Of a stretch of DNA of 37,517 nt, positions 1-28,815 are shown piece after piece. The notes beneath the pieces are model-generated. The model searched no databases and was not told the DNA's origin. It saw only the letters and a list, made by a program, of their open reading frames with translations. The stretch lies in the IMG/VR virus record IMGVR_UViG_3300044637_001073, positions 1 to 37,517 of that record; one strand, given 5' to 3'. Made by a program: the position numbers and the translations under genes. Position 1 is the stretch's first letter, and each line of letters begins with the position of its first letter. The DNA is from a virus.

Positions 1-169
1 TTTCATTCTCATTTGTATTTCCATTTTGAGAATAATAAGTTGCTCCACCTGAACCTAAATTCCAAGAAATTGAATTGATTACAGAATTTGCAAAACATTT
101 TCTATTACCAGCATCAAGTGCTAATACAAGTCCCGATTCATTTAAGTCTGGCCCACCATAAACGCCCAC
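1..169 (-). CDS. LamG-type tail/fibre protein, N-terminus only (cut by window edge)
   Basis: The reading frame starts at a GTG at 169 and runs off the window at position 1, so only about 56 residues are visible. It opens MGVYGGPDLNESGLVLALDA followed by GNRKCF. This signature is shared with the two LamG-type proteins upstream (HGLVFSFDAANRKC and NGLVLCLDAANLKSF). GTG is chosen because GGAG lies 9 nt upstream, inside the end of the preceding gene, and no ATG gives the conserved N-terminus. The paralogues continue into concanavalin-like beta-sandwich domains, so this one probably does too; that part is inference. Likely role: a distal tail or fibre component contacting the host surface. Confidence 0.75.
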   Translation of the reverse strand, partial: MGVYGGPDLNESGLVLALDAGNRKCFANSVINSISWNLGSGGATYYSQNGNTNENE

Positions 170-14086: not shown

Positions 14087-17000
14087 TTATTTTGTTAGTT
14101 GTTTGTCTAGAGTTACTACAAATGAGTTATCATAATATCCATAATAATAGAATACTACATCAGAACTAGCTGGAACAGATAGTATAGAATTATCAAGTAA
14201 ATCTGGATCGGTTAGATTATTATTGAAATATACTGTAGTAACATTACTGGAATCAACTGTTTTATATAAAACTTGTCTTTGCCAGCAACAGTTGTTTGGA
14301 GCATAATACAACCAATCCATTGAAGTTCTTTGTCCATATATTGTAGATCCATTTGATGGAACAGATGCACCATCAACTAGAAGAATTCTATATGTGCCAG
14401 CTCCACCATATCCACTTAGATTTAATGAATCTTCATCAGTATAAATTGAATTTCCTGATGCATCGTAAGATAAGAATACATCTCCTGCCATTCCAACAAC
14501 GTATCCAAATAAACCAGAATAGGTTCCATTTGAATGATTTCCGCTTGTATATAATGGCTGACCTCTGAACAGAGCACCTTCGGTAGGAGTTGTAACAGTC
14601 ATAATCCTTTCTAAAGGATCAGTTGTATTATTAATAGTTGCAAATGTTGCAGTAAATGTTGCATAACTAGAAATTCTCATCATGCTTTGAATATATGCAG
14701 AACTAATTTGAATCGCAGCCTGCCCTGCATCTGCATTTGCATGAGATTTAACTCCAAGATACCCCCATCTTCTAAATCCTGCAGTGTTAAATTCTTCTAC
14801 CGAAGAATCTCTTCCAGAACTTAAAATAGCAGAAGTTAATGGACTTACATATTGATATATGGAAGTATCATTAGTATTTGACCCGTGAATATTAAAAGTA
14901 TGCTTATAATATATTTGCTTGCTTCCAGAATTATAATACGCAATGCTTCCACTAATACGTCTGTCACCTTCTCTATTTGTAGAAAGAGCAGTTCCTGGAA
15001 GATTTTGTGGATCTCCAACAATAAGTTTAACATTATTCCAATTCGTTGCATTAGCTTGATTGGAAACAGTATCTGACTTAGAAATGTCTCTATATGGAAT
15101 TGTTATAGTTTGTCCAATGGAAAGTTTCTCAAAGTCAGCATTTAAACCTATAGAATCATTTGTGGAATTAATTGAAATTCTTGCAACTTTATCAGTTATA
15201 ATTCCAGTTGGAGTTACGTAAGTAGTTCCATAATCAACATCTTTAATATTGTCTCCAATAGAGCCAGATGAATTAAATCTCTTTATACCATAACAGGTTA
15301 CATCTACTGGATCTGCAATAGTAATTACGGTTGGTATTAGAGTATCTACTGCAACTGTTGAGTCACTTACATTAAGTGGATCTAGACCTTCCCAGTCATG
15401 GATATAATGTGGCCAGTACTTCGTCATACTTCTAGTTAGACGAATTTCATATCCCTTAGGATCTGATGATTGACCTGCTTTTTCAAAGTCACAGGTTTCA
15501 CGATTTCCAATAGTAATTCTTCCAGAAGTTGGCCAATAATCTAAAACGTTATCATAATCAAATACATCAAATCTAGTATTAGAAGGATATGTAATAACAT
15601 ATTCACTATCTTCTAGCATAACAATAATATCTGCTCTTACATCAGAATCATTATCTTCATTGATGTATCTGTATACTCCAATATATGGACTATTATTTGT
15701 GGAATTTGATGTAGCAATTTTGTAGTAAATTCCATTGTATAAAATATATCCACCTGGCTTGAATATAGTTTTTGCTCTTAATAGTTCAGATTTTAAATTT
15801 ATTAAAGAGTTTGGATTTTGAATACTGTTGAGTATAAAACAGTTTTTAGGAAGAACAACTTTAAATTCTCCATTCTCAAACATTTCTAGAATATCTTCAT
15901 TGCTGTAGTTATTTCTAACTGTAAACGTAAAGTTTCCAGAAATTTTGGTATTTCCATTATAAATTGCTAGGACATCGTTTTTAACATGACCACTTCCAAA
16001 TGAAATAATATCTAAACTTGTAAGAATTCCATTACTATCTGTAGATAGTACTACTTTTCCTGCCGTCCAAGTAGATGGACTACTTAATCTAGTTTCATTT
16101 TTTAATGAATAAACCGTGGATCTAGTAGCATTAGCTACGGCAAAAGTTGCACCTATATTTGAAATAGCTAAGTTAGCTGGTTCAGAATATTTAATATTGA
16201 CATCATCTTGAGCAAGGATAAGTCTTGAATTATTCCCAACAATAGTTTTTTGATAACGACCAGTAGAAGTAGATACGTAGTTATATCTGATGCTACTTAA
16301 GTAATTTACATTTAAATCAATTCGTGTATTTGCTGCTTGTGCTAGGACTGCAAAAGAGCCACTATATGCAACTTTTGCAAATTTATATTTTCCTGAATTT
16401 CCTCCAGATGCTTTTGTTACTGCTCCATTTTCAATATTGAAAGTATCACCATAAGTAAATACTTTAGTTGCAGTAGCATATGTAGTTTCAAGGTTATCAT
16501 ATTTTACAAACTTTGTTGCAAATTTTCCTACGAAAAGGTTTTTAATTATATCTTCACCAGATTCATCTGCAGGATAGAAGAATGATAGTGTTTTTGTTTC
16601 TAACTGTGCATAAGATGCAATAGAAGTTGACACAGACAACCCAGTTGTCACTGTAGAACTTGTATCATTCCATCTTAGTAACACAGCAGAAGCATTTCCA
16701 TTTGCAGTTGGAATGTAACTTCCAGTTGGAGTTCCATTTGGAGCATCATACCATATTTTATATGGAGTTTGATATCTTTCATTCAATGCAACTTGAGTTA
16801 GTAAAGCACCACTTGCAATTGAGCTAGCTCCAGTCCAAGGAGTTACACTCTGCTTGGATTTATTGAATCTTCTAATAGCTTGTAATGTAGTGAGTGGGAA
16901 TGTTCTGGCATCACCATCAGATAATTCTCCATATGGATCCTTGGATGGTTCTAGGTAAATATTTGATGTTGGATTATATTCAGATAGTATTTTAAATTCT

Positions 17001-20000
17001 TCATCAAAAGGACTGGTTGCAATAGCATATGCTGGAGCTGTTCCTCCCAGCTGAGTAAGTTGATTTTGATCTTCCATCTGGAACATCTCAATAGAGTGTC
17101 CAGCAATGAAACTTCCCCCAACTCTTGATGAATTACCGCTGAACAATCCTGTCCAATCAAGAGATAAATTACCTCTAAATCTAGTTCCATTTAGAGTTAA
17201 TTTTGCACCTCTACACTTGATTAATCCTCCTCTATATCCACCACCAAATGTGTTTGCAGCTTCACTTGCAGGAGATTGAGCACCAATAGTAACGCCAGTT
17301 AGATTTAATGTATAATCAGAACCTGGAAGTGCATTTACAGTAATTAGACTGCTTTGATAGTTTCCATTTACAGGGAATCCTGCAGATGGGAATCTTCTTC
17401 TAAGTGCTCTATATGCATATGGCCAGGATAGAAATACTTTCTTTCCTCTTGCAGTTAATGCATCATCATCTACACCTATACCAGCAGGTACTCCAGTTGT
17501 TGCTTTTTTTACACTATCTAGATATGGAGAAGCTCCACCAGAAGCACCAGTCGTAGTAGTTACAGAAAATGCAGATAATAAGTTTTGTTTTGCCACAGCT
17601 TTAAAATCATCTGCAGATAATTCTCTGTCAGAAAGACTTACAGTGTTTCCAGTAGGAGACAGAATATATCCTTTTCCATCATTTACTTGAATTGTAAATT
17701 GGCCATTAATAGTAGTTGCTACTGAACTATTGATTCTATAAGCTCTAATCGAAGTAATAGCTCCAGTAGAAGTATTAATATTTGCATATATTCCAACATT
17801 GGATGATGTGCCGCCAGTAGATACTAATACTGCACTCAATCTTCCATTATACTTTCTAGTATTTGTAAGACTTCCTTGATTAGTTAATGCAGAGCTTATT
17901 GCATCAGATATGGCATTAGTGTCATTATTAAAAGTGCCACCTGCAGCAATACTAATATTTGAGAAGTTAACTGTTGTAGCACCAAATCCTGTTCCAATTC
18001 CTCCACCAAACTGAAGTGTGGTATTATCATAGTTTGCAAACAAACTTAAAATAGTTTTATCAATACCTGCATTTTCAATAAATGCATCAATAGATGTAGC
18101 AGCATTTGGATCGGATGCATTACCTGAAGGAATTGCACCAAATTCTCTAGGAGCAAGGTCAAGAACAATATATCTAGCCTCAGTATAACCATTTCTTCTT
18201 AGTGGAAGAGATTTCTTTCTATTGAATGCAATCGCAGCATCTTCAGGAGCACCATAATTTGTAGTAGCAATTCCTGTAACTGTTTTTGATTGAATTAAGC
18301 AAGTTGGATAAATTCCGAAACTAGAAGAACCATATGGATATTCTTTAATTGTATTATCAACTTCATAATTTGGATTTCTATCAATAATTAATGAAATGTA
18401 TCCTTCCTCAGAACCTCTAATGATTCCAAAAATTTCTGGAATATCATACTTAGGAATTTCTTGACCAAATATATCATATTGAGTGAATGATACTTGAGAA
18501 TTCACCGAAAGACTTGTAGTAATATTATCAGTTAGTGTAATATTATTTCCGCTGATATTAGCAATTCTAGTTCCAATTGGAATTAAATTAGTTCCATTTG
18601 AATCTAATGCTACAATTTTATCACCAGTTAAAATACTATCAACATTGTTTAATGTGATTACTTTTTGACCAGCAGTTCCTAATCCAGTTACAGTTTTGAT
18701 GATTGCTGGTTGATATCCACCCTCATGCATAAATCCTTTTGGTAGGAATGTTCTTCTAGTTTCTAGAGCCCAGTTGTATGCAAGAGTAGTAAACTCAGCC
18801 CCATCTTCATTTAAAAATACTAATTTTTTATTTCCAGTTGTATAATTGTCTAGGTCTAAATCTTCAACTGCGTTAGTATATGCACCATTATTTCCATTAT
18901 TTCCAGCTTCAGTTCTATATACTGAAATTAGAATATGAAGTTCTTCTGTAGATAACCCTGCATTTTTTCTTCTAACACTTAATACTTTGGTAGATTTGGA
19001 TAGATTTTCTACGGTAGCTTCATCAGAACCTTTAATTACCTTTCCACCCTCTGTCAACCAATACATGGTTGTTCCTGGAATAATATATTTCTTTAATTTA
19101 TCAAATTCAGTTGCAGTGAAACTTGAAGATTTTAGTGCAACAATTAAATAACGGCAGTTTGAAATTGTGGCTGAATTTAATTCTAGATAAGTTGAATTGC
19201 TAGCAATTTTATCAATAACGTCAGTACTATTAATGTGTGGAATTAATTTTGCCTTTACTGTACTGGTAGGATCGGTAGTATTTGCAAGAACTTCAATAGC
19301 ACCATGTATTCCAGAAGTATCGATTGTATTTAATCCAATTGCGGCAAGAGTTCCAGTAGCATCAGTGGAAGATTTAATATTACTCTTGATGTAATATGCT
19401 CTTCTAATATTTCTTCTTGCAGTTTGTACTTGAGTGTCTGAACTATAAATTGAATCTGGAATTTCACTCTTAGAGATTGCCTCATTTAATCCGAGGAAAT
19501 GTACATTGTTTACATTAAATGAACCAGTTGTAGTCAATCCTCCACTAACATTGACGTTCATAGCGTCATTACCAACTCCAAATTGAGTCGAAAATTCTGG
19601 TGAACGATATAGATAGACACTATCTCCTCTCTTTATGCTATCTTCTAAATAGCCACCCATTCTTCCCGCAGAAGTTCTTGTACGCTCTTTGCCAGCAAAT
19701 ACATCACTTTCTACAACACCAGTTCCATTAATTTTTACAGAACATGGGAATGAAGTTCCATCTAATTTATAATATCCAGGTTTCATTAGCAGTTCTAATT
19801 CATCAGATGAATTAAATCCTGAATTTTCTGCCCATTGTCTTGCCTGTGAGAATGAGAATATAGGACTAAATCTCTTAACTGCTGTTCTCTCTTGAATATT
19901 TACACCCAAAGCTTTAGAGCTATATGGGTTAGGTAAATTTTTGTTGAAATACTCTTGATCTAGATTTGTAGCAACAGCAATAGATTTTTCAGCCGTCTTG

Positions 20001-23000
20001 TAAAGAATTGCATCTTCAATATTTACTTCTTCCACTACACCTTTTGTAGGATCTAGTGGTGGAATAAATGGATCTTCGGATGCCCATCTATCAGAAGAAT
20101 ATACTAGTGTACTACAACCATTGAAGAATACATTTTTAGGACTAATTCCTGGATAATTATTTACATAAGTGCTGTAAAATGTAGCAGTTGTACCATTAGC
20201 ATTTGTTGCAGCACCAATATTTTTAACTAATTTAAATGTAGCATAGCTTCCATCTGAAACATACTCAATTTTATAGTATGCAAAGGTTGCAATTTTATAA
20301 GCTTCACCCTTTGCATTTTCTCTTAGCGATACACAACCTCTAGATGGCCATTGTTCATATTCATCAGCAGTCATAGAAACTCTGATTTCTTTATATGTAG
20401 ATGTATTTAATGGGTTTATTTCTGCATAAGTAAAATTAGATTGTAGTTTCGCAGTAAGATATTTTATATCTCCTTCTGATGCATTGAATCCATATAGATC
20501 ACTTGATTCTGAGGTAGTTGTGGATTGCTGATTTCCAATAGAAGGATAATTTTTTAAAATGGAAGTATGAACTCCAGTACCACAATAACTCTTCAAATAA
20601 GTAATTAAAGGTATTCCGTTTTGATAATTTGATAGAACTGCACTATTATCTGTATAATCAATAGATTCATATTGCAATGGAATATTGATTGTTGGATTGA
20701 AATAAACTTTATTTCCAGATCCATCAATATAATAATCTTCTACACTCAATCCATCTATTCTCATCTGGATATCAATTTTTCCATATGAAGGAACTCCAGA
20801 ACTTTCCGCAAAATTAATTTTAATTGCAGAAGTATTGGACCAAGTAACATCATTAACTGTAGTATCCGTGAACTTAACTGCGTCTGCAACTTTTTTACCA
20901 CCTACAGTTTTATATGAATCAATAGCATTCTGTAGATATGGCTGAACATATACTCTATTATTATCAAGATTAACAGCTTGAGCAGAAATAAGTTGTCTCT
21001 TTACTCTCCATGCATCAAGATATTTTGGAGAAACATATAATTTATCGTTGGTATCAGTTGAGATATATCCAGTTTTATCTGGTTTTGCTGCCTTTACAAA
21101 GCCATACGCATTTGTATTTCCTTCAGGGAAGTAAGTAGAATTATTAATTTCTGCTCTATCAATATATAATCTTTGCCCAATAATTAAGTTATTGATATTT
21201 GCTTTATCACTAACTGTTAATTTGGCAATATTAAAGAAATTGGATAGTGATTTTAATGCAGTTTGATTAGAATTGGATTTGTCACCTGTTGTAGTAGTTA
21301 CATTGATAACTGCGTTTGAAATTCTGTTTTCAATATTTGCAATATCAAGATAATTAGACTCAGATGATCTACGGAGTTTGGGTACATTTAATGTTACAGT
21401 AGAAGTTCCTCCGGCTTGAATAATCTGGTTTCCAATATAAAAATCTCCAGCAGAGTTAGTTCCAGAAGAAGCAATAAATCCTCCACTGTTTTCATAACCT
21501 TGGGCAATAAACTGCTCATAGATTTTGAGAACTCTTGTTTGTAAATTTGGGAAACCAGTTGAGTAGTTACCAGAACCTAAACCAATATATTCCCATGTAT
21601 GTGAAGATGCACGAAGAATAGATGGTCTATATAAAGGAACAACAGGAGCAAAAGAAAAACTATTATCATTTAAGGTGGTTGTGTTAACCGTATATCCAGG
21701 AGATGTTACTGTAATTCTTCTATCCAATGCATCACCGTCAATTCCAAATTTATTATTTGATGTAATTGTTGGAATATCATCGGTAATTGAACCAGAAAGT
21801 AATGCAGTATTACTACCTCTACCAAATCTAATGTCAGTAGAATATACTGTGTATGAATCACTTGAAGTATAACCTAATGATGAACTACTAGTTCTAGAAT
21901 CCCAAGAAACAACTGGAGCAACGAAAACTCTACCTGAGTTATCTGGTCCACCACCAGAAGTCATCATTGAATTGCTGGATGAAATATATCGTAAATCTAA
22001 AGATTGAACCAATCTATGTACAGACTCTGCTGTTACAGAATATAGAGATGGAATATCTTTCAATGGAGTAGTTCCACCTCTATAACTCTTAAAGTTTGGA
22101 ACTGAAATATCTTTAATTCTATTTCCGCTACCAATAGATTCGATTAATACACGAGAATCTGATTGTGGGAAATTCCAAATTTTAAATGGATCATAATCTG
22201 GACCTTCTTCATTAACAGAAGGATACAAGTAATTTATATTTGTAAATAATTTAGTATCCTTATCAAAATTATTTAATTGTTCAACAAAAGTACAATCAAA
22301 ATCATTGGTTGAAGTAATTCCAGTTGGTCTCCTAGTAATTGTTGATGGGACGTTTGTGGTGGAATCTACAAATTTATTTACGTCTGCTCTTACAACAGTC
22401 AGATAATAAAGTCCATCTCTAGTATTCTTTTCCCATGCAGTTACTTCTTCAACATCCCAAACCATAAATCTATAGTCTGAATATGGAATACCATCCTCAC
22501 CATTTCCGGCACGAGTTCCCTTGATGATAAATCTTTTTTCTGGTGCCTTTGGAATTACTCCAGAGCTTAAAGATTTAGGTATTGTATATTCAACTTTCCA
22601 TAATAAATCCCCAGGAGTAGCTGTTCTGGTGTCAGAATATTTCTTGACAATAAGTGTTGATGGGAATCCAGTTTTATATTTTAAAATTTTCTTAGTTGTT
22701 TGTACTAATGAAGTTACTGCAGAACCATCACTTGCATAATTTGTTTTAAAGTCAAATGATTTTTCTTCGTTATATGCAAAAATAAAATTTTCTAAGAAAT
22801 TATTTGTTTCTGCATCTGCAAATTCTAATCTTAAGTAAATAACTCTTTTTTTGGGATCAAAAAAGTATCCTACTCGTTCTGAGTTTTTGGTAGTAGGGAC
22901 ACCATCTGTTTTTGGATTGTCTACATCTAGGATGGTATCAAATACTTTAACTTTTGCTTTGAATTTCGTAGGCTCAGTGGATTCTGCACTTTCTAGTTCT

Positions 23001-25627
23001 AGATTGATATATCTATTTGATTCTGGAGAAATCCCTGAAGCTTGATAGTAGTCTCTAAACAATGCATATTGATTTGATGTTCCAAATGTTAGGAATCTTT
23101 TTCTTTCTGTTAGACCAGTAACTTCATTTTTGCTCTCAACAATTAATTCTGGAATTGTGTCATCTGTCAATCCACTAGAAATCTCAAGATATAAGTTAAA
23201 ATATTTGGAATTTTTATAAGCAACTAATTCACTTTGTACTGCAGAAGTTAGTTCATCACTTACTGCACCACTAACATCTTTCCAAGTGCTATCTGCATCA
23301 ATATTGTAAAAACTTACACTTGACAGTGTTGGACTAATTCCTCTTGGAGGAATTACTGCAGTAATTCTTCCCTGTGATGCAGGAGGGAATGCATTAAATT
23401 GGGAACCTTTTGCACGAAGTGAAATTTGACCGAAGTTGGAGTTAGAGTTGGTGATAGACATATCACCACCAGTCTCTGCAAGGAATTGATCTGCGTAACC
23501 AACTGCGAAAACAGAAACTACCTGAATGAAGCCACCATTAGATGCTTTGATATGGAAGTGTCTGCACTCTGGCTTATATTCTGCATCTGGATCTGCAAAA
23601 ATTGGTGGATTTGTTGGAGTACTATCTGAATCAGTACTATCTCCTTCAAGGTCTTTTGGTTGAATGAATACGCTTCTATCTTTCTGTAGAGAAATACCAG
23701 TGAACTGTGCAACAACCATAGACTTGAAGCTGTTCTCTGCAACTTTACTACCATCAGTATGCATACCGCACATACCGAAGACAGAACGTAGTGAACAGTT
23801 GAAGATGTATGGTGAGCAAGAATTAACTGTATCAATTGTGGTATTCTTGCTACCATCACCAACAATAGTAAATTCTTCAGGTCTTACTTGGGATGGGTCG
23901 TCTGAAGTTCTACCCTGCCAAGCATCAATTTTTTTATAGTATTGATCTAGTTCACCATCAGTTGTTCTTTGATCTGCATAAGTGAATGCAACAACTTTAT
24001 GGTGAGAATATTTTGCGTTATTGGTAGCGTTAAATGTAGGAATGCCGTTGCTATCAAAGGTAGCTGAATTATAAATTGGGTTTAAGTCAGATGCTACTGC
24101 ATCCTTAAATGTCATCTGCCAGAAATAACATCCGCCAGTAACTTTAAAAATAGAAGTCTGCTTAAATACTCCCTGAGTTTTTCTAAGTTTTATATTTGTG
24201 GTGGTTCCATTAGAAAGGGTAACGTTAACTGCCTCTGTGGTATAATCATCTGGATTATTTAAAATTCCAGTCGCAATAGCGCCAAGAGTAGCAACAGCAG
24301 TAACTACACTAGAACAATCTCCATTAGCACTATATCCATTCCCGACAGAAAAAGTAGTTGGAGATGGAATTGATCCACCGCTATAATATGTGGGAGCAGC
24401 ATTAGCAGTACTACCGTCATTGTAAGATTTTACAATGCTTCTCATAATTTGAACTGCATGATTAAATGCAGCTACGGTTGCAGCAATTTCCTGACTTACA
24501 TCAGAATCATTGCTATTCATAAATTGCGTTCTATATCCATTACCATCAATATAATATTCTGCATTATTGAAGGTATTTTCGTTTCCACCTTGTCTTAAGT
24601 CTGAGCAAATTGCATCAATAAAGTAACCAATATCACGAACACATAATAATTTTTGTGCTTGAGACAATGCATTATATGCAGCAGATTGAGGATTTTGAAC
24701 ACTTTCTAGATATAATTTTGTTTGTTCTTGAATATAACCACGATTCTTCTCGATCATATTTGCACCATCATACATTACATGTGATAGTGCATATCCATCC
24801 CCAGCTAGGCTTCCCTCAGTTGAGAATGGTGCAGGTACATATTTTGGTCTAATGACAGTTTTTCTGAGGTCATAACCAACAATAGAAGTACCTCTAGGTA
24901 CAATAACTCCACCATTTCTTGGGTTGAATCTAAATGGTTCGGCATTAATTGTGGTGGCAGTTCCAGCTACCAGTGGGTTTGTTGTAATATCATACCCTGG
25001 TCTATTGTCAATCTCATACTGACCAGGAAGCACCATGATAGTGAATGCTTCAAACTTGTCATTACTTAGTTTTACTGTTCCTGTTCCAGTACCTTTTGCA
25101 TTAGCAATAAATGAAACACCTACAGTATTTGAAGATGCACCAATAGATACAAAATTAGTATTATTTCCTACACTAGTGATTGTATATGCTTTACCAACTT
25201 CTAGGGCAGTTACACTTATTGGTGCTGGATTTGCTTTATAACTTCTCTTTGCTGCCTCTAGTAATGCTCTCTCGATGGTCTTGAATGGTCTATTTAAATT
25301 TCCACCATCATTAGCTTCTGCATCGGTGGCATTTAAATCCGCCTGGTTTACATATAAAGTAATATTTTCTGCACCTTCAAAGTTTGGATTAGTTCCACCT
25401 AGAACAGTGTTGTTTCCGGTGATAATAGTTCCATCTGCCTTGAAAGTTAATCTAGGCTGTCCTGCCGTAGAAATTGCAAGTTCATTATCAGCTGGCTGGT
25501 AAATACCAGTTCCAGTATCATCAGAATTATTGAATCTAATTGCTGGAGCCGCAGGTGTATTGTTACTATCGAATACAATCTTTACGCCTTCCGCAATACC
25601 ACCAGAAGTAATTCTAGTTAGAGCCAT
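14087..25627 (-). CDS. Giant virion structural protein, 3846 aa, multidomain with pectate-lyase-like beta-helix
   Basis: The N-terminus (IRFNNSDDTGTGIYQPADNE) matches the fibre module of the 215-aa protein. From about residue 95 there is the start of a beta-helix (LYVNQADLNATDAEANDGGN, LNRPFKTIERALLEAA), interrupted near residues 310-390 by a Cys-containing helical segment (KLLCVRDIGYFIDAICSDLR). Further helix-like segments occur near residues 1930 (FSFSQARQWAENSGF...MKPGYYKLDG) and 2480-2850 (RYIVLDLAPREFGA, GGLIKCRGAKLTLNGTRFRG). No signal peptide, transmembrane run or clear catalytic site is seen. A TATAAATA motif and an AGG site 7 nt from the ATG lie upstream. Proteins of this size in cyanophages are virion components; a tail or baseplate-associated fibre or depolymerase-like spike is likely, but exact place is unknown. 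Confidence 0.85.
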   Translation of the reverse strand: MALTRITSGGIAEGVKIVFDSNNTPAAPAIRFNNSDDTGTGIYQPADNELAISTAGQPRLTFKADGTIITGNNTVLGGTNPNFEGAENITLYVNQADLNATDAEANDGGNLNRPFKTIERALLEAAKRSYKANPAPISVTALEVGKAYTITSVGNNTNFVSIGASSNTVGVSFIANAKGTGTGTVKLSNDKFEAFTIMVLPGQYEIDNRPGYDITTNPLVAGTATTINAEPFRFNPRNGGVIVPRGTSIVGYDLRKTVIRPKYVPAPFSTEGSLAGDGYALSHVMYDGANMIEKNRGYIQEQTKLYLESVQNPQSAAYNALSQAQKLLCVRDIGYFIDAICSDLRQGGNENTFNNAEYYIDGNGYRTQFMNSNDSDVSQEIAATVAAFNHAVQIMRSIVKSYNDGSTANAAPTYYSGGSIPSPTTFSVGNGYSANGDCSSVVTAVATLGAIATGILNNPDDYTTEAVNVTLSNGTTTNIKLRKTQGVFKQTSIFKVTGGCYFWQMTFKDAVASDLNPIYNSATFDSNGIPTFNATNNAKYSHHKVVAFTYADQRTTDGELDQYYKKIDAWQGRTSDDPSQVRPEEFTIVGDGSKNTTIDTVNSCSPYIFNCSLRSVFGMCGMHTDGSKVAENSFKSMVVAQFTGISLQKDRSVFIQPKDLEGDSTDSDSTPTNPPIFADPDAEYKPECRHFHIKASNGGFIQVVSVFAVGYADQFLAETGGDMSITNSNSNFGQISLRAKGSQFNAFPPASQGRITAVIPPRGISPTLSSVSFYNIDADSTWKDVSGAVSDELTSAVQSELVAYKNSKYFNLYLEISSGLTDDTIPELIVESKNEVTGLTERKRFLTFGTSNQYALFRDYYQASGISPESNRYINLELESAESTEPTKFKAKVKVFDTILDVDNPKTDGVPTTKNSERVGYFFDPKKRVIYLRLEFADAETNNFLENFIFAYNEEKSFDFKTNYASDGSAVTSLVQTTKKILKYKTGFPSTLIVKKYSDTRTATPGDLLWKVEYTIPKSLSSGVIPKAPEKRFIIKGTRAGNGEDGIPYSDYRFMVWDVEEVTAWEKNTRDGLYYLTVVRADVNKFVDSTTNVPSTITRRPTGITSTNDFDCTFVEQLNNFDKDTKLFTNINYLYPSVNEEGPDYDPFKIWNFPQSDSRVLIESIGSGNRIKDISVPNFKSYRGGTTPLKDIPSLYSVTAESVHRLVQSLDLRYISSSNSMMTSGGGPDNSGRVFVAPVVSWDSRTSSSSLGYTSSDSYTVYSTDIRFGRGSNTALLSGSITDDIPTITSNNKFGIDGDALDRRITVTSPGYTVNTTTLNDNSFSFAPVVPLYRPSILRASSHTWEYIGLGSGNYSTGFPNLQTRVLKIYEQFIAQGYENSGGFIASSGTNSAGDFYIGNQIIQAGGTSTVTLNVPKLRRSSESNYLDIANIENRISNAVINVTTTTGDKSNSNQTALKSLSNFFNIAKLTVSDKANINNLIIGQRLYIDRAEINNSTYFPEGNTNAYGFVKAAKPDKTGYISTDTNDKLYVSPKYLDAWRVKRQLISAQAVNLDNNRVYVQPYLQNAIDSYKTVGGKKVADAVKFTDTTVNDVTWSNTSAIKINFAESSGVPSYGKIDIQMRIDGLSVEDYYIDGSGNKVYFNPTINIPLQYESIDYTDNSAVLSNYQNGIPLITYLKSYCGTGVHTSILKNYPSIGNQQSTTTSESSDLYGFNASEGDIKYLTAKLQSNFTYAEINPLNTSTYKEIRVSMTADEYEQWPSRGCVSLRENAKGEAYKIATFAYYKIEYVSDGSYATFKLVKNIGAATNANGTTATFYSTYVNNYPGISPKNVFFNGCSTLVYSSDRWASEDPFIPPLDPTKGVVEEVNIEDAILYKTAEKSIAVATNLDQEYFNKNLPNPYSSKALGVNIQERTAVKRFSPIFSFSQARQWAENSGFNSSDELELLMKPGYYKLDGTSFPCSVKINGTGVVESDVFAGKERTRTSAGRMGGYLEDSIKRGDSVYLYRSPEFSTQFGVGNDAMNVNVSGGLTTTGSFNVNNVHFLGLNEAISKSEIPDSIYSSDTQVQTARRNIRRAYYIKSNIKSSTDATGTLAAIGLNTIDTSGIHGAIEVLANTTDPTSTVKAKLIPHINSTDVIDKIASNSTYLELNSATISNCRYLIVALKSSSFTATEFDKLKKYIIPGTTMYWLTEGGKVIKGSDEATVENLSKSTKVLSVRRKNAGLSTEELHILISVYRTEAGNNGNNGAYTNAVEDLDLDNYTTGNKKLVFLNEDGAEFTTLAYNWALETRRTFLPKGFMHEGGYQPAIIKTVTGLGTAGQKVITLNNVDSILTGDKIVALDSNGTNLIPIGTRIANISGNNITLTDNITTSLSVNSQVSFTQYDIFGQEIPKYDIPEIFGIIRGSEEGYISLIIDRNPNYEVDNTIKEYPYGSSSFGIYPTCLIQSKTVTGIATTNYGAPEDAAIAFNRKKSLPLRRNGYTEARYIVLDLAPREFGAIPSGNASDPNAATSIDAFIENAGIDKTILSLFANYDNTTLQFGGGIGTGFGATTVNFSNISIAAGGTFNNDTNAISDAISSALTNQGSLTNTRKYNGRLSAVLVSTGGTSSNVGIYANINTSTGAITSIRAYRINSSVATTINGQFTIQVNDGKGYILSPTGNTVSLSDRELSADDFKAVAKQNLLSAFSVTTTTGASGGASPYLDSVKKATTGVPAGIGVDDDALTARGKKVFLSWPYAYRALRRRFPSAGFPVNGNYQSSLITVNALPGSDYTLNLTGVTIGAQSPASEAANTFGGGYRGGLIKCRGAKLTLNGTRFRGNLSLDWTGLFSGNSSRVGGSFIAGHSIEMFQMEDQNQLTQLGGTAPAYAIATSPFDEEFKILSEYNPTSNIYLEPSKDPYGELSDGDARTFPLTTLQAIRRFNKSKQSVTPWTGASSIASGALLTQVALNERYQTPYKIWYDAPNGTPTGSYIPTANGNASAVLLRWNDTSSTVTTGLSVSTSIASYAQLETKTLSFFYPADESGEDIIKNLFVGKFATKFVKYDNLETTYATATKVFTYGDTFNIENGAVTKASGGNSGKYKFAKVAYSGSFAVLAQAANTRIDLNVNYLSSIRYNYVSTSTGRYQKTIVGNNSRLILAQDDVNIKYSEPANLAISNIGATFAVANATRSTVYSLKNETRLSSPSTWTAGKVVLSTDSNGILTSLDIISFGSGHVKNDVLAIYNGNTKISGNFTFTVRNNYSNEDILEMFENGEFKVVLPKNCFILNSIQNPNSLINLKSELLRAKTIFKPGGYILYNGIYYKIATSNSTNNSPYIGVYRYINEDNDSDVRADIIVMLEDSEYVITYPSNTRFDVFDYDNVLDYWPTSGRITIGNRETCDFEKAGQSSDPKGYEIRLTRSMTKYWPHYIHDWEGLDPLNVSDSTVAVDTLIPTVITIADPVDVTCYGIKRFNSSGSIGDNIKDVDYGTTYVTPTGIITDKVARISINSTNDSIGLNADFEKLSIGQTITIPYRDISKSDTVSNQANATNWNNVKLIVGDPQNLPGTALSTNREGDRRISGSIAYYNSGSKQIYYKHTFNIHGSNTNDTSIYQYVSPLTSAILSSGRDSSVEEFNTAGFRRWGYLGVKSHANADAGQAAIQISSAYIQSMMRISSYATFTATFATINNTTDPLERIMTVTTPTEGALFRGQPLYTSGNHSNGTYSGLFGYVVGMAGDVFLSYDASGNSIYTDEDSLNLSGYGGAGTYRILLVDGASVPSNGSTIYGQRTSMDWLYYAPNNCCWQRQVLYKTVDSSNVTTVYFNNNLTDPDLLDNSILSVPASSDVVFYYYGYYDNSFVVTLDKQLTK

Positions 25628-25659: not shown

Positions 25660-25667
25660 TATTTATA
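25660..25667 (-). promoter_or_regulatory. T4-type late promoter motif TATAAATA upstream of the giant gene
   Basis: An exact TATAAATA lies in the 45-bp gap between speD and the giant structural gene, giving a leader of about 25-30 nt with an AGG ribosome binding site. It is one of only two exact matches I noticed upstream of minus-strand genes, and both are intergenic. It would separate late expression of the giant gene from the speD cassette. Confidence 0.7.
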
Positions 25668-25672
25668 CAAGT

Positions 25673-26008
25673 TTACCTATCAAAACAGTTCATGTTATAT
25701 TCTGTAGGGTTTAACAAATTTATTATGTGCAAAAGTGCTAAATCTGGCTTAGAATCTCCGCATGTAAATACATCTAATGCGGAACTACCTTCTTCAGGCC
25801 AAGTATGAATAGATATATGACTCTCGGAGAGTAACGCAACAATGGTTACTCCTTGAGGTGTAAATTTATGAGAGCAAATGTCCAATAATGTTGCTCCAGC
25901 AATATCAATTGATTCTCGTATTAGTTCTATCAGAACTTTTTCATTATCGAGAATAGAGTGGTCACAACCGTATAATTCTGCGACACAGTGCTTTCCTAAA
26001 TTCTTCAA
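25673..26008 (-). CDS. speD: S-adenosylmethionine decarboxylase proenzyme, 111 aa
   Basis: SpeD makes decarboxylated S-adenosylmethionine, the aminopropyl donor for spermidine synthesis, using a pyruvoyl group made by self-cleavage. The protein (MKNLGKHCVAELYGCDHSIL) has the proenzyme motif SESHISIHTWPEEG, with cleavage expected between Glu62 and Ser63 (Ser63 becomes pyruvoyl), His68, and Cys83 in DVFTCGDSKPD. All key residues are intact and the length matches short bacterial/archaeal-type enzymes. The start is a TTG at 26008 with no Shine-Dalgarno; an in-frame TAA 27 nt upstream excludes a longer version. It sits between gp5 and the giant protein, behind a 61-aa gene and a sigma70-type promoter. 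Cyanophages often carry speD, presumably to affect host polyamines during infection. Confidence 0.93.
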   Translation of the reverse strand: MKNLGKHCVAELYGCDHSILDNEKVLIELIRESIDIAGATLLDICSHKFTPQGVTIVALLSESHISIHTWPEEGSSALDVFTCGDSKPDLALLHIINLLNPTEYNMNCFDR

Positions 26009-26017
26009 GTTCGTGGT

Positions 26018-26046
26018 AGTATAAAGGATAACTTATTTATTACCAA
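26018..26046 (-). promoter_or_regulatory. Possible second promoter just before speD
   Basis: The minus strand has TTGGTA, 17 bp, TATACT. The -10 matches consensus in 5 of 6 bases and the -35 in 4 of 6. Its transcript would begin within a few bases of the TTG start, nearly leaderless, which makes it doubtful. An AATAAATA (one base off the late motif) also lies in the spacer. Confidence 0.25.
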
Positions 26047-26097
26047 AAACCATAGGGGCTAAAAATCCTGGGGAATTTTTTTCCGGGTATTTGGTAA
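26040..26097 (-). promoter_or_regulatory. Structured leader element upstream of speD
   Basis: On the minus strand TTACCAAATACC (26097-26086) can pair with GGTTTTTGGTAA (26051-26040): 8 bp, one T-T mismatch, then 3 bp, closing a 34-nt loop that itself holds a GGAA/TTCC hairpin. No T tract follows, so it is not a standard terminator. It lies in the 108-bp gap between the 61-aa gene and speD and ends 32 nt before the speD start. Possible roles are translation control, RNA stability or processing, or ligand sensing; no known riboswitch was recognised. Confidence 0.45.
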
Positions 26098-26116: not shown

Positions 26117-26302
26117 TTAGTATGTGTACTTGATCATATCTTCGGTTAGTGATCCATTGATGAATGCACACATGTTAGTAAAGTCTTGAGCGTCTGGTTC
26201 ATGTAGCTTTAGGTACTCACCATCATCTCCATGAAGATGGATAGTCCTTGATAGCATGTCTACTTCAACACGATTTAGGGTTGAGTTATCTCGGATGTTC
26301 AT
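26117..26302 (-). CDS. Small hypothetical protein upstream of speD, 61 aa
   Basis: The protein starts MNIRDNSTLNRVEVDMLSRT and ends SLTEDMIKYTY; it is soluble and has no recognised motif beyond HLHGDDGEYLKLHEPD. The ATG at 26302 is chosen because GGAG lies 7 nt upstream and a consensus-type promoter ends 22 nt before it. A longer frame up to 26353 would have to start at the TTG that forms the promoter's -35 box, so it is rejected. It is the first gene of the speD cassette. Expression from a host-type promoter suggests early action, but its function is unknown. Confidence 0.8.
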   Translation of the reverse strand: MNIRDNSTLNRVEVDMLSRTIHLHGDDGEYLKLHEPDAQDFTNMCAFINGSLTEDMIKYTY

Positions 26303-26324: not shown

Positions 26325-26353
26325 AGTATAGCACGATACCTGGCGGCTGTCAA
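26325..26353 (-). promoter_or_regulatory. Sigma70-type promoter of the 61-aa/speD cassette
   Basis: The minus strand reads TTGACA (26353-26348), exactly 17 bp, then TATACT (26330-26325). The -35 is a perfect match, the -10 differs at one position, and the spacing is optimal. It starts 11 bp after the gp5 stop and ends 22 bp before the 61-aa start. T4-like cyanophages use host-sigma70-like promoters for early genes, so this cassette is probably transcribed before the late genes that surround it. Confidence 0.88.
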
Positions 26354-26364
26354 CCCCCATTGAA

Positions 26365-28815
26365 TTATGTATCGAAGATGGCTGGTCCTTCTCTGAATGC
26401 TAGAGCAGCACTGATGTCCAATAGAACACCTTCAATGCTCTTTGTACATAGCCCAGTTGTATTGGTGAACATAGCTCCAGTAACACTTTCCAGATTTGTA
26501 GATAACTTAGTCTTTGTGGTAGCACCAACAGTAGTATCATTATCAATTCCCAATCTAGTTGTAGTGTTGGTTCCCATAATACTAGTGTTATATAATCCAC
26601 CCTTCCAAACATTTTCTGCAGCAGCTTGGAATTTATTTGACAATCCAGTTCCTATATCAGTATTTGTACCAGCACGAAGATTAATCCTATTTCCACCAAT
26701 TAAACAGAACTTATTCAACCCAATGTATTTGTTTTCATACATTGAAAATAAATTCCATGATCCAGTACATAAATGATTTTGTTCTGTGCAATATGTACTG
26801 AATGTTGGTGAGTGCATATCCAACTGTCCACCTGCACTTAATCCTATTTTAGATGCAGCTATGGCTAATCCATTTGCAGCACTTAATTTGGCATCATTAC
26901 TATAAATGGTTTCATGTTCTCCATTATAAGTTACTTTACTTTCTCTGTTGGCAAATACATTATATTGTCCATCAACTTCTAGATGATAATTTCCTCCAAC
27001 TTTTAAGTGATAATTTCCTTTGACTTTGATGTGTGCATCTCCCATGATATTAACTTCTTGCTTACCAAAAGTAACTTCAACTTTATTATTACTATTAGTA
27101 ACACGAATATTTCCATCGTCATCAACTTGGAATCCAGTTCTACTTCCACCTGCTTCAATAACAAGTCTATTGTTATATGGAGTATCATCCATCATTATGA
27201 GATGTCCAGCTTCACTTGCTTGAACAAATTGCTTTGAGTATTCTGGGTTCCATTTCCCTGCAATATTATTTGTTACTCTAAAGTTAAATGGATTACAATT
27301 ATTTCCAGTTAATGCACATTCATTCCAATCAATTTGCAATGGTGATTCAGTAGTTCTATTACATCCAACTCCAAGTAAATTTAAAATGAATGACACAATA
27401 TTTCCAATGTTGGCTAACATATTTGCATTCACAAATCCTTTACTGTCAAATAGGTCTCCCATCTGACCTATGTTTCCAACTGTTTTAATCAAATCTATAA
27501 TTCCTTTGATTGCATTTGCAATCTCAGTTCCAACTGCAACAATCTCAAAAATAGAACCAAAGATATTATTGATACACTCTTCTGCAAATGCTATGTATTT
27601 GTCAGCAAGATCAATTAAATCTCTTGCCATTTTTTCGACAAACTCTTCAATAAATCCTTCAATACCTTTCATCAAAGCATCAACCAATGCCTCATCAATA
27701 GTACAAGAAATTGTTTTTAATACTTGAACTACAACCTCAGTTAAAGTTTTTACAAAGTATGGAATAGGACTACTTGCAGATAGACCAATACTGTTTAAAA
27801 TTCTAGTAACCTCTTCCATTAACCAAGACTTAACCTTATTCACAATATACCAGATTAAGTTTCTGATTACTGCAATACATCTATCAACAGCACGTTTTAA
27901 ATCTACAACTTTATTTGTAAATTTACCATAGATTTCAATTGGAGTATCGGTTTTTTTAATATATCTTATAGATGTGCCTGCAGTATGTGCAGCTGGCTTT
28001 GTTCCATCAGCACCTCGTTTTATATTAACTAAAGATTTTTCATTCTTTCCATTGTAAGTAATAGTTTCACTTCCAATCTTGATTCTTCCTATTGGTGGAA
28101 ATTGTGCTACATTACTTACGGTGATAAAGTTTTCTTCAATAGATAAATCTCTTGTGAGAGTTGGGTTTCCTGCATTTGGATTATATACAACACCTGTTTT
28201 AAAAATATTTCCAAGACCTTCAATACATCTTTTTATATCTTCTACAATCGTATTTACTGGACCATCCTTTCCATCAGCAATTGAAGTTGCACCTAGATTG
28301 CCAGAAGGGTTTGATGGAGAAGCTGGTAAAGATGCTGCAGCCACAGAGTCAGATGCAAGACCACCAGCATCATTTGTTCTTTCTGAATCTTGAGGTTGTC
28401 CAGTTTTACTTTCTTGTGATGTAACTGAATTTACTATACCTGGATTGTTTGCTGCTGCGAGTGTTCCTGGTTCTGCAAATATTGGTCTGATTTGACTGTA
28501 GAATGACCCCATTACTACAGGCTGTTGACAATCAGGATAATCCAAGAAAAATCCCATCACAAAACTACCAGCCTTCAATCCTGAGTTAGCAGCGTTACCA
28601 ATTCCACTAACCGCAGCATTTGTAGTTGGTTGTAGCACAAGTGCCCATGGAAGATTCTCAGGTTTCTCAAAAGGATCATGAAACCCAAGAATCTTTACAC
28701 GTACTCGTCCTAATTTTGCATCTCGATCATCTGGATTTTCAACAGTGCCCAGCCACCAAGTGAAATCATTATTGCCAAGAAATGCTGAGTTCTGTAATGT
28801 AGGATTGATTGACAT
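26365..28815 (-). CDS. Baseplate hub/tail spike protein, gp5-like, without lysozyme domain, 816 aa
   Basis: The N-terminal ~110 residues form an OB-fold like T4 gp5 (FTWWLGTVENPDDRDAKLGR, VRVKILGFHDPF, GFFLDYPDCQQPVVMGSFYS). A second small beta domain lies near residues 215-285 (VSNVAQFPPIGRIKIGSETI then YNGKNEKSLVNIKRGADGTK). Residues of about 325-480 are an unusual helical hydrophobic stretch (VVVQVLKTISCTIDEALVDA, ANIGNIVSFILNLLG). The C-terminal part has the gp5/VgrG beta-helix pattern (HIKVKGNYHLKVGGNYHLEV, DGQYNV). No lysozyme domain is present, unlike T4 gp5. It should trimerise at the tail tip and pierce the outer membrane. It follows the 71-aa gene by 3 bp (TGATAAATG). Confidence 0.88.
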   Translation of the reverse strand: MSINPTLQNSAFLGNNDFTWWLGTVENPDDRDAKLGRVRVKILGFHDPFEKPENLPWALVLQPTTNAAVSGIGNAANSGLKAGSFVMGFFLDYPDCQQPVVMGSFYSQIRPIFAEPGTLAAANNPGIVNSVTSQESKTGQPQDSERTNDAGGLASDSVAAASLPASPSNPSGNLGATSIADGKDGPVNTIVEDIKRCIEGLGNIFKTGVVYNPNAGNPTLTRDLSIEENFITVSNVAQFPPIGRIKIGSETITYNGKNEKSLVNIKRGADGTKPAAHTAGTSIRYIKKTDTPIEIYGKFTNKVVDLKRAVDRCIAVIRNLIWYIVNKVKSWLMEEVTRILNSIGLSASSPIPYFVKTLTEVVVQVLKTISCTIDEALVDALMKGIEGFIEEFVEKMARDLIDLADKYIAFAEECINNIFGSIFEIVAVGTEIANAIKGIIDLIKTVGNIGQMGDLFDSKGFVNANMLANIGNIVSFILNLLGVGCNRTTESPLQIDWNECALTGNNCNPFNFRVTNNIAGKWNPEYSKQFVQASEAGHLIMMDDTPYNNRLVIEAGGSRTGFQVDDDGNIRVTNSNNKVEVTFGKQEVNIMGDAHIKVKGNYHLKVGGNYHLEVDGQYNVFANRESKVTYNGEHETIYSNDAKLSAANGLAIAASKIGLSAGGQLDMHSPTFSTYCTEQNHLCTGSWNLFSMYENKYIGLNKFCLIGGNRINLRAGTNTDIGTGLSNKFQAAAENVWKGGLYNTSIMGTNTTTRLGIDNDTTVGATTKTKLSTNLESVTGAMFTNTTGLCTKSIEGVLLDISAALAFREGPAIFDT

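Follow-up and report, generated by a model that had tools for sequence, protein, structure and literature searches.

What is a near-consensus sigma70-type promoter sequence doing among the late structural genes of a cyanophage, and which gene does it serve? The question arises at the end of gene 5 in a 37.5-kb virus record, probably a fragment of a larger genome from a virus that infects cyanobacteria; this whole stretch of DNA is referred to here as the window. On its minus strand the baseplate hub gene, the promoter, a 61-aa open reading frame, speD and a 3846-aa open reading frame follow one another, with these features:

26365..28815, minus strand: baseplate hub / tail lysozyme gene (T4 gp5-like), 816 aa; open reading frame matching phrog_694 (E 1.4e-44) and Pfam Gp5_OB (E 1.2e-10)
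26348..26353, minus strand: -35 box TTGACA, from direct reading and motif scan, kept in relatives
26325..26333, minus strand: extended -10, TGC followed by TATACT (hexamer 26330-26325), from direct reading and motif scan
26117..26302, minus strand: DUF7294 / phrog_662 gene, 61 aa (PF23966, 37.4 bits; phrog_662, E 1.1e-5)
25673..26008, minus strand: speD, S-adenosylmethionine decarboxylase, 111 aa, TTG start (Pfam AdoMet_dc, E 2.2e-35; phrog_3125)
14087..25627, minus strand: giant open reading frame, 3846 aa, the next gene downstream of speD, from the ORF list

The initial annotation had described TTGACA, 17 bp and TATACT, placed 11 bp past the gp5 stop and followed by a 61-aa gene and speD, and both direct reading and a motif scan confirmed this arrangement. 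The hub gene, a late structural gene upstream of the promoter, ends in a stop codon read at 26367-26365 (minus strand), leaving a gap of 11 nt (26364-26354) before the -35 box. The 17-nt spacing between the boxes has TGC at its end and the hexamers match the consensus at 11 of 12 positions in the motif scan, so that the site displays the near-consensus hexamers, 16-18 nt apart, of a sigma70-type promoter. TATACT is followed after 22 nt by the ATG at 26302, which has GGAG a few nucleotides upstream and opens the 61-aa frame ending at 26117.

Taken by itself, the match in the window is barely above chance, and it is conservation that carries the case for a promoter. Against 200 dinucleotide shuffles, sites matching at 11 or more of the 12 positions are as frequent as expected (3 observed, 3.0 expected) and TTGACA-16..18-TANNNT gives 2 observed against 3.25 expected; the more specific forms are TTGACA-17-TGNTANNNT (1 against 0.09) and at least 11 of 12 matches with spacing 17 and TGn (1 against 0.06). 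To describe conservation we used a strict motif, TTGACA-N16..18-TANNNT within 75 bp before the DUF7294 start, and two groups of relatives. The IMG/VR set holds 29 loci with the small gene, each contig counted once and repeats of the same contig excluded, as was L099, whose contig ends just past the hub gene. The gene 5 region was also inspected in 25 named phages chosen from tblastn lists, among which only the distant ACG-2014e lacks a DUF7294 gene behind the hub gene; it was excluded from the counts. Conservation of the boxes among relatives had been put forward in the initial annotation as a test, and the boxes proved to be kept: the strict motif occurs in 28/29 IMG/VR DUF7294 loci (20 distinct sequences, with TGn before the -10 in all 28) and in 17/24 named phages (17 distinct sequences), the latter being a non-random sample because they were picked from tblastn lists. 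Random 75-bp windows contain it at a frequency of 0 to 0.0005 in late blocks and about 0.01 genome-wide. Across 11 distinct promoters of the window clade (those of the window, its nearer relatives and L111), 1.6-2 bits are carried by the -35 box, by the TG and by -10 positions 1, 2, 3 and 6, and about 1 bit by -10 positions 4 and 5, while most spacer positions stay below 0.6 bits. Judged from these alignments, the site is a conserved promoter at a fixed place before the same gene, with constant boxes and a changing spacer.

The exceptions are of several kinds. L128, the one IMG/VR locus without the strict motif, has TTGACT, as does P-SSM4 in place of the strict -35; ACG-2014d, S-SSM5 and S-SSM6b retain chiefly the -10; and S-SZBM1, S-WAM1 and P-RSM6 have no promoter motif, the DUF7294 gene abutting or overlapping the hub gene in all three. 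S-SZBM1 (L141:3245) and S-WAM1 (L151:7321) have instead TTGAC[AT]-17-TACAAT about 60 nt past the DUF7294 stop. Six phages (Syn9, P-SSM7, S-H35, S-ShM2, Syn19 and ACG-2014b) have a -35 that overlaps the stop codon of the preceding gene, which is gp5 except in P-SSM7, where a gene is placed between.

The distribution of the two promoter types along related genomes bears on the timing of the site. Passages of PMC2984593 describe cyanomyoviruses as lacking alt, modA/B, motA and asi, with early genes thought to use the unmodified host polymerase, and give NATAAATA as the cyanomyovirus late promoter. In G001, a 172-kb relative, strict matches lie before or near gp55, gp46/47, the gp43 block, primase, psbA, gp32 and RNA ligase. 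Counted on the coding strand there are 23 in 51.7 kb of early/replication blocks and 16 in 38.8 kb of small-ORF blocks, together 39 in 90.5 kb, against 1 (within the terminase gene) in the 80.9 kb of the three late blocks; the 0.9-kb island at the gene 5 junction holds 2. S-CREM1 shows 18 in 54.0 kb of early/replication blocks, 10 in the 37.1-kb small-ORF block, 3 in the island and none in the 54.4-kb wedge-to-head block. Its other two late blocks contain 5, namely the DUF7294 promoter (41087), a pair next to the CP12 gene and a tRNA, and another pair in the fibre block, so that four strict matches in late blocks besides the DUF7294 promoter count against the pattern. Those near the CP12 gene and tRNA-Val (37160 and 37521 in OP535465) lie within the baseplate block and possibly form a second early island in the late region. 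In seven further marine genomes whole-record strict-motif counts are skewed to the coding strand. Back-to-back divergent TTGACA promoters, a few bases apart, were also seen (G001:66218-66292, G002:46052-46126, G001:162098-162160). The view that a sigma70-type, presumably early, promoter is set within a late region is thus supported by the block counts of G001 and S-CREM1, the two relatives scanned over their whole length; sigma70 use, early timing and the starts and ends of transcripts at the site are what we infer from sequence.

The gene directly behind the promoter belongs to DUF7294, its PF23966 score lying above the curated cut-off of 27 bits, and the promoter tracks this gene across relatives; in Syn9 the DUF7294 protein is gp21. 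The AlphaFold model of the 61-aa protein is confident and compact (pLDDT 89.6), with three strands, a helix and a strand. Foldseek against the PDB placed FtsH periplasmic domains first, with no match at E <= 0.001, while a second structure aligner ranked ribosomal proteins highest (Z at most 6.4), with FtsH scoring no higher than 4.5. Against solved structures, a profile search yielded no match with E below 0.11; in BFVD there were six matches at E <= 0.001, the five named ones being uncharacterised cyanophage proteins. Considering that the structural matches are middling and unrelated and that no solved relative was found by profile, no function can be assigned to the 61-aa protein. In 9/10 genomes of one named-phage set, and in S-RIM8, an annotated Phd-like antitoxin gene lies next to DUF7294, downstream, and is followed by a variable set that includes endonuclease V, 2OG-Fe(II) oxygenases, transaldolase and tRNA genes. 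A role in host takeover is a guess from the promoter and the antitoxin-like neighbour in marine phages. Immediately behind the small gene, another sigma70-like site is present in L013, L015, L016, L017/L126, L127, L128 and L111, its TTGACA overlapping the DUF7294 stop and a short stretch without an obvious gene lying below it; four of these loci have GTCCGTGTGAAGGAA in common below the site, which could belong to a small RNA or a leader.

Further downstream, the intergenic regions around speD hold three more elements:

26040..26097, minus strand: stem-loop region after DUF7294, from folding; a possible weak terminator whose end overlaps the speD late motif
26034..26041, minus strand: late-type promoter motif AATAAATA of speD; NATAAATAA before the speD start in relatives
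25660..25667, minus strand: late-type promoter TATAAATA before the giant open reading frame, kept in the window and 15/15 loci listed

As in a T4-type late promoter, NATAAATA lies upstream of speD and is kept in relatives: the window and 16/16 window-clade loci with speD have NATAAATAA at a distance of 33-34 nt from the TTG start, on its upstream side. What immediately precedes the motif varies: several loci have the end of a tRNA there, L012 an inserted ORF and the window a plain gap. In the speD loci around S-CREM1, which are more distant, there is only a TAAATA-like sequence at this position. A second TATAAATAA lies between speD and the giant open reading frame in the window and the same 15/15 loci. 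The motif alone is no proof of late use, since G001 also has 20 copies of NATAAATA within its 51.7 kb of early blocks. In the window and all 15 relatives listed, speD begins with TTG, with no clear ribosome-binding site by eye. In L012 (4400-4975) an extra ORF, HNH endonuclease-like by eye, lies between the tRNA and speD and has its own TATAAATAA.

The 108-nt gap after DUF7294 in the window folds at -21.9 kcal/mol (z -2.9), and its core stem forms in all 7 of the sequences aligned, one base pair being changed in both partners. The window stem-loop has no classic U run and is not a canonical terminator, so that an early transcript may possibly run through DUF7294 into speD. Classic terminator-like stem-loops follow DUF7294 in L008, L015, L016, L017 and L128. 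In relatives the gap carries tRNA-Leu(UAA) and in some also tRNA-Met(CAU), several with their own TTGACA-17-TATGAT-type site; no tRNA is present there in the window or in its nearest relatives L004-L007. An Rfam search of the window gave no match. A short peptide read by eye in the gap was not kept, as it has a stop in L010.

Presence and absence of speD separate it from the promoter. Among the 29 IMG/VR DUF7294 loci speD lies downstream in 23, and L135 ends too early to tell; L111 and L129-L132 have the hub gene, the promoter and DUF7294 with no speD match behind; a late-type motif precedes the next large ORF, and L111 has a tRNA in the interval. Six complete genomes (Syn9, P-RSM1, P-SSM7, S-CAM8, S-ShM2 and Syn19) have the strict promoter and, by profile search, no speD anywhere; in S-RIM8 speD is more than 100 kb away from the promoter. 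Among the tblastn matches listed, which cover 60 of 145 records, speD adjoins the sliding clamp gene in many phages. The promoter is independent of speD, and because relatives keep it together with the small gene with or without speD, it most likely serves the small gene.

These data allow the competing explanations to be weighed. The initial annotation was right about an early-type promoter in a late region and went too far in taking the promoter, the small gene and speD as one early cassette inserted for speD, a moron. In favor of such a cassette, speD follows DUF7294 in most IMG/VR loci and the window gap to speD has neither a canonical terminator nor a tRNA. However, phages without speD, which were expected to lack both promoter and small gene, have both in the 5 IMG/VR loci and six complete genomes above. 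In addition, speD has its own conserved late-type motif; terminators, tRNA genes and further promoters separate it from the small gene in relatives; and GC content is ordinary (39% in the small gene and 35% in speD against a window mean of 35%, with 19% of 186-bp stretches equalling or exceeding the small gene in GC). We therefore regard a cassette inserted for speD as improbable, and in the window clade the best reading of the sequence is that speD would be a separately controlled guest gene. Lambdoid morons are alike in that an ORF with its own promoter, as DUF7294 has here, stands amid genes of another expression class; they differ in having a base composition unlike that of their neighbours, which neither DUF7294 nor speD displays, and the DUF7294 promoter is widely and anciently conserved. 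As for the empty site that a moron would leave in close relatives, the relatives compared here were found via the hub gene, speD or the small gene itself, and ACG-2014e, the one named phage lacking DUF7294 at this place, is distant.

Less probable still is a mobile cassette of the PeSL type, in which the promoter would be mainly a recombination site for gene swapping behind gene 5. PeSL cassettes of T4-like phages (PMC4503421, in part) likewise combine an early promoter with a nearby stem-loop and adjoining variable genes; the stretch behind the present promoter is highly variable, and promoters like it are found at other places in the genomes. In contrast to what citing passages say of PeSL cassettes, no repeated similar copies were seen here: the copies have nothing but the boxes in common, because their spacers differ, the stem-loop element after DUF7294 is single-copy in G001 and in the window (itself a fragment), and the promoter stays with DUF7294, with no movement between genes. 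A coincidental match, or retention of the sequence for some other purpose (DNA binding or the start of replication, for example), would agree with the near-chance statistics of the window alone, but the conserved boxes, the varying spacer and the fixed location ahead of the same gene make it the most remote of these explanations. A parallel with T4 origin E was rejected because in T4 repEA/repEB are located within gene 5 and on the opposite strand.

The site is very probably, then, an old host-type (group 1 sigma, sigma70-like) extended -10 promoter at the end of gene 5 of T4-like cyanophages, serving DUF7294. Host RNA polymerase should read it without phage factors, and for this reason it should fire early. 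It would transcribe the 61-aa DUF7294 gene, with the Phd-like antitoxin gene next in most marine relatives. Behind this head gene there would be a variable stretch where tRNA and metabolic genes, some with their own promoters, come and go, speD being one such guest. In the window clade a gp55-type late promoter motif of its own precedes speD, which is therefore expected to be expressed mainly late, with early read-through possible.

Sigma70-like promoters are already known in cyanophages, and the informative part is the location of the DUF7294 one. The early promoters of S-PM2 and Syn9 (PMC2984593, in part) resemble it in their sigma70-like boxes and in that a phage factor is thought unneeded; unlike them, it occupies a fixed place in the late structural region before DUF7294. 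The T4 early promoter has GTTTAC in its -35 region, as given in a passage of PMC1524935, and the present site has TTGACA. In the cyanomyovirus hypervariable region g15-g18, metabolic genes are also inserted in a structural module (PMC2984593, in part); here the guest place is behind gene 5 and is headed by a conserved promoter and DUF7294. A search of titles and abstract openings retrieved no paper on the gene 5 junction, which says little about what is in print, and the available portions of PMC5082946, PMC9964418 and PMC10665884 do not mention the promoter.

Some promoters of this locus contain palindromes. In a test made after the pattern had been seen, inverted repeats whose arms reach 5 or more within the -35/spacer region were found in 10/37 distinct locus promoters, against 2.6 expected from shuffled spacers, and in 7/76 other strict sites of G001 and S-CREM1 used as control. 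The palindrome of the Syn9 promoter (18628-18656) has arms of 8 bp, and in the window promoter there is none. Spacer GC is 65% at locus promoters against 47% in the controls, and the inverted repeats are not shared in sequence between loci. A broader and rather doubtful proposal is that the gene 5 junction of Kyanoviridae may be a permanent early outpost. There the sigma70-type promoter, with operator-like palindromes in some lineages, would drive DUF7294, mostly (in marine phages) with the Phd-like antitoxin, as a host-takeover/anti-toxin unit. The tRNA and metabolic genes would be docked behind and re-wired, speD via its own late promoter.

With this finding, the notion of an early gene among late ones acquires a precise location that can be tested and that many cyanophages share, several of them isolates (Syn9, S-CREM1, S-RIM8). 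As a small protein with an early-type promoter in many lineages, DUF7294 is a candidate host-takeover gene. Given that speD has its own late-type signal, the timing of a metabolic gene should not be taken from the nearest upstream promoter.
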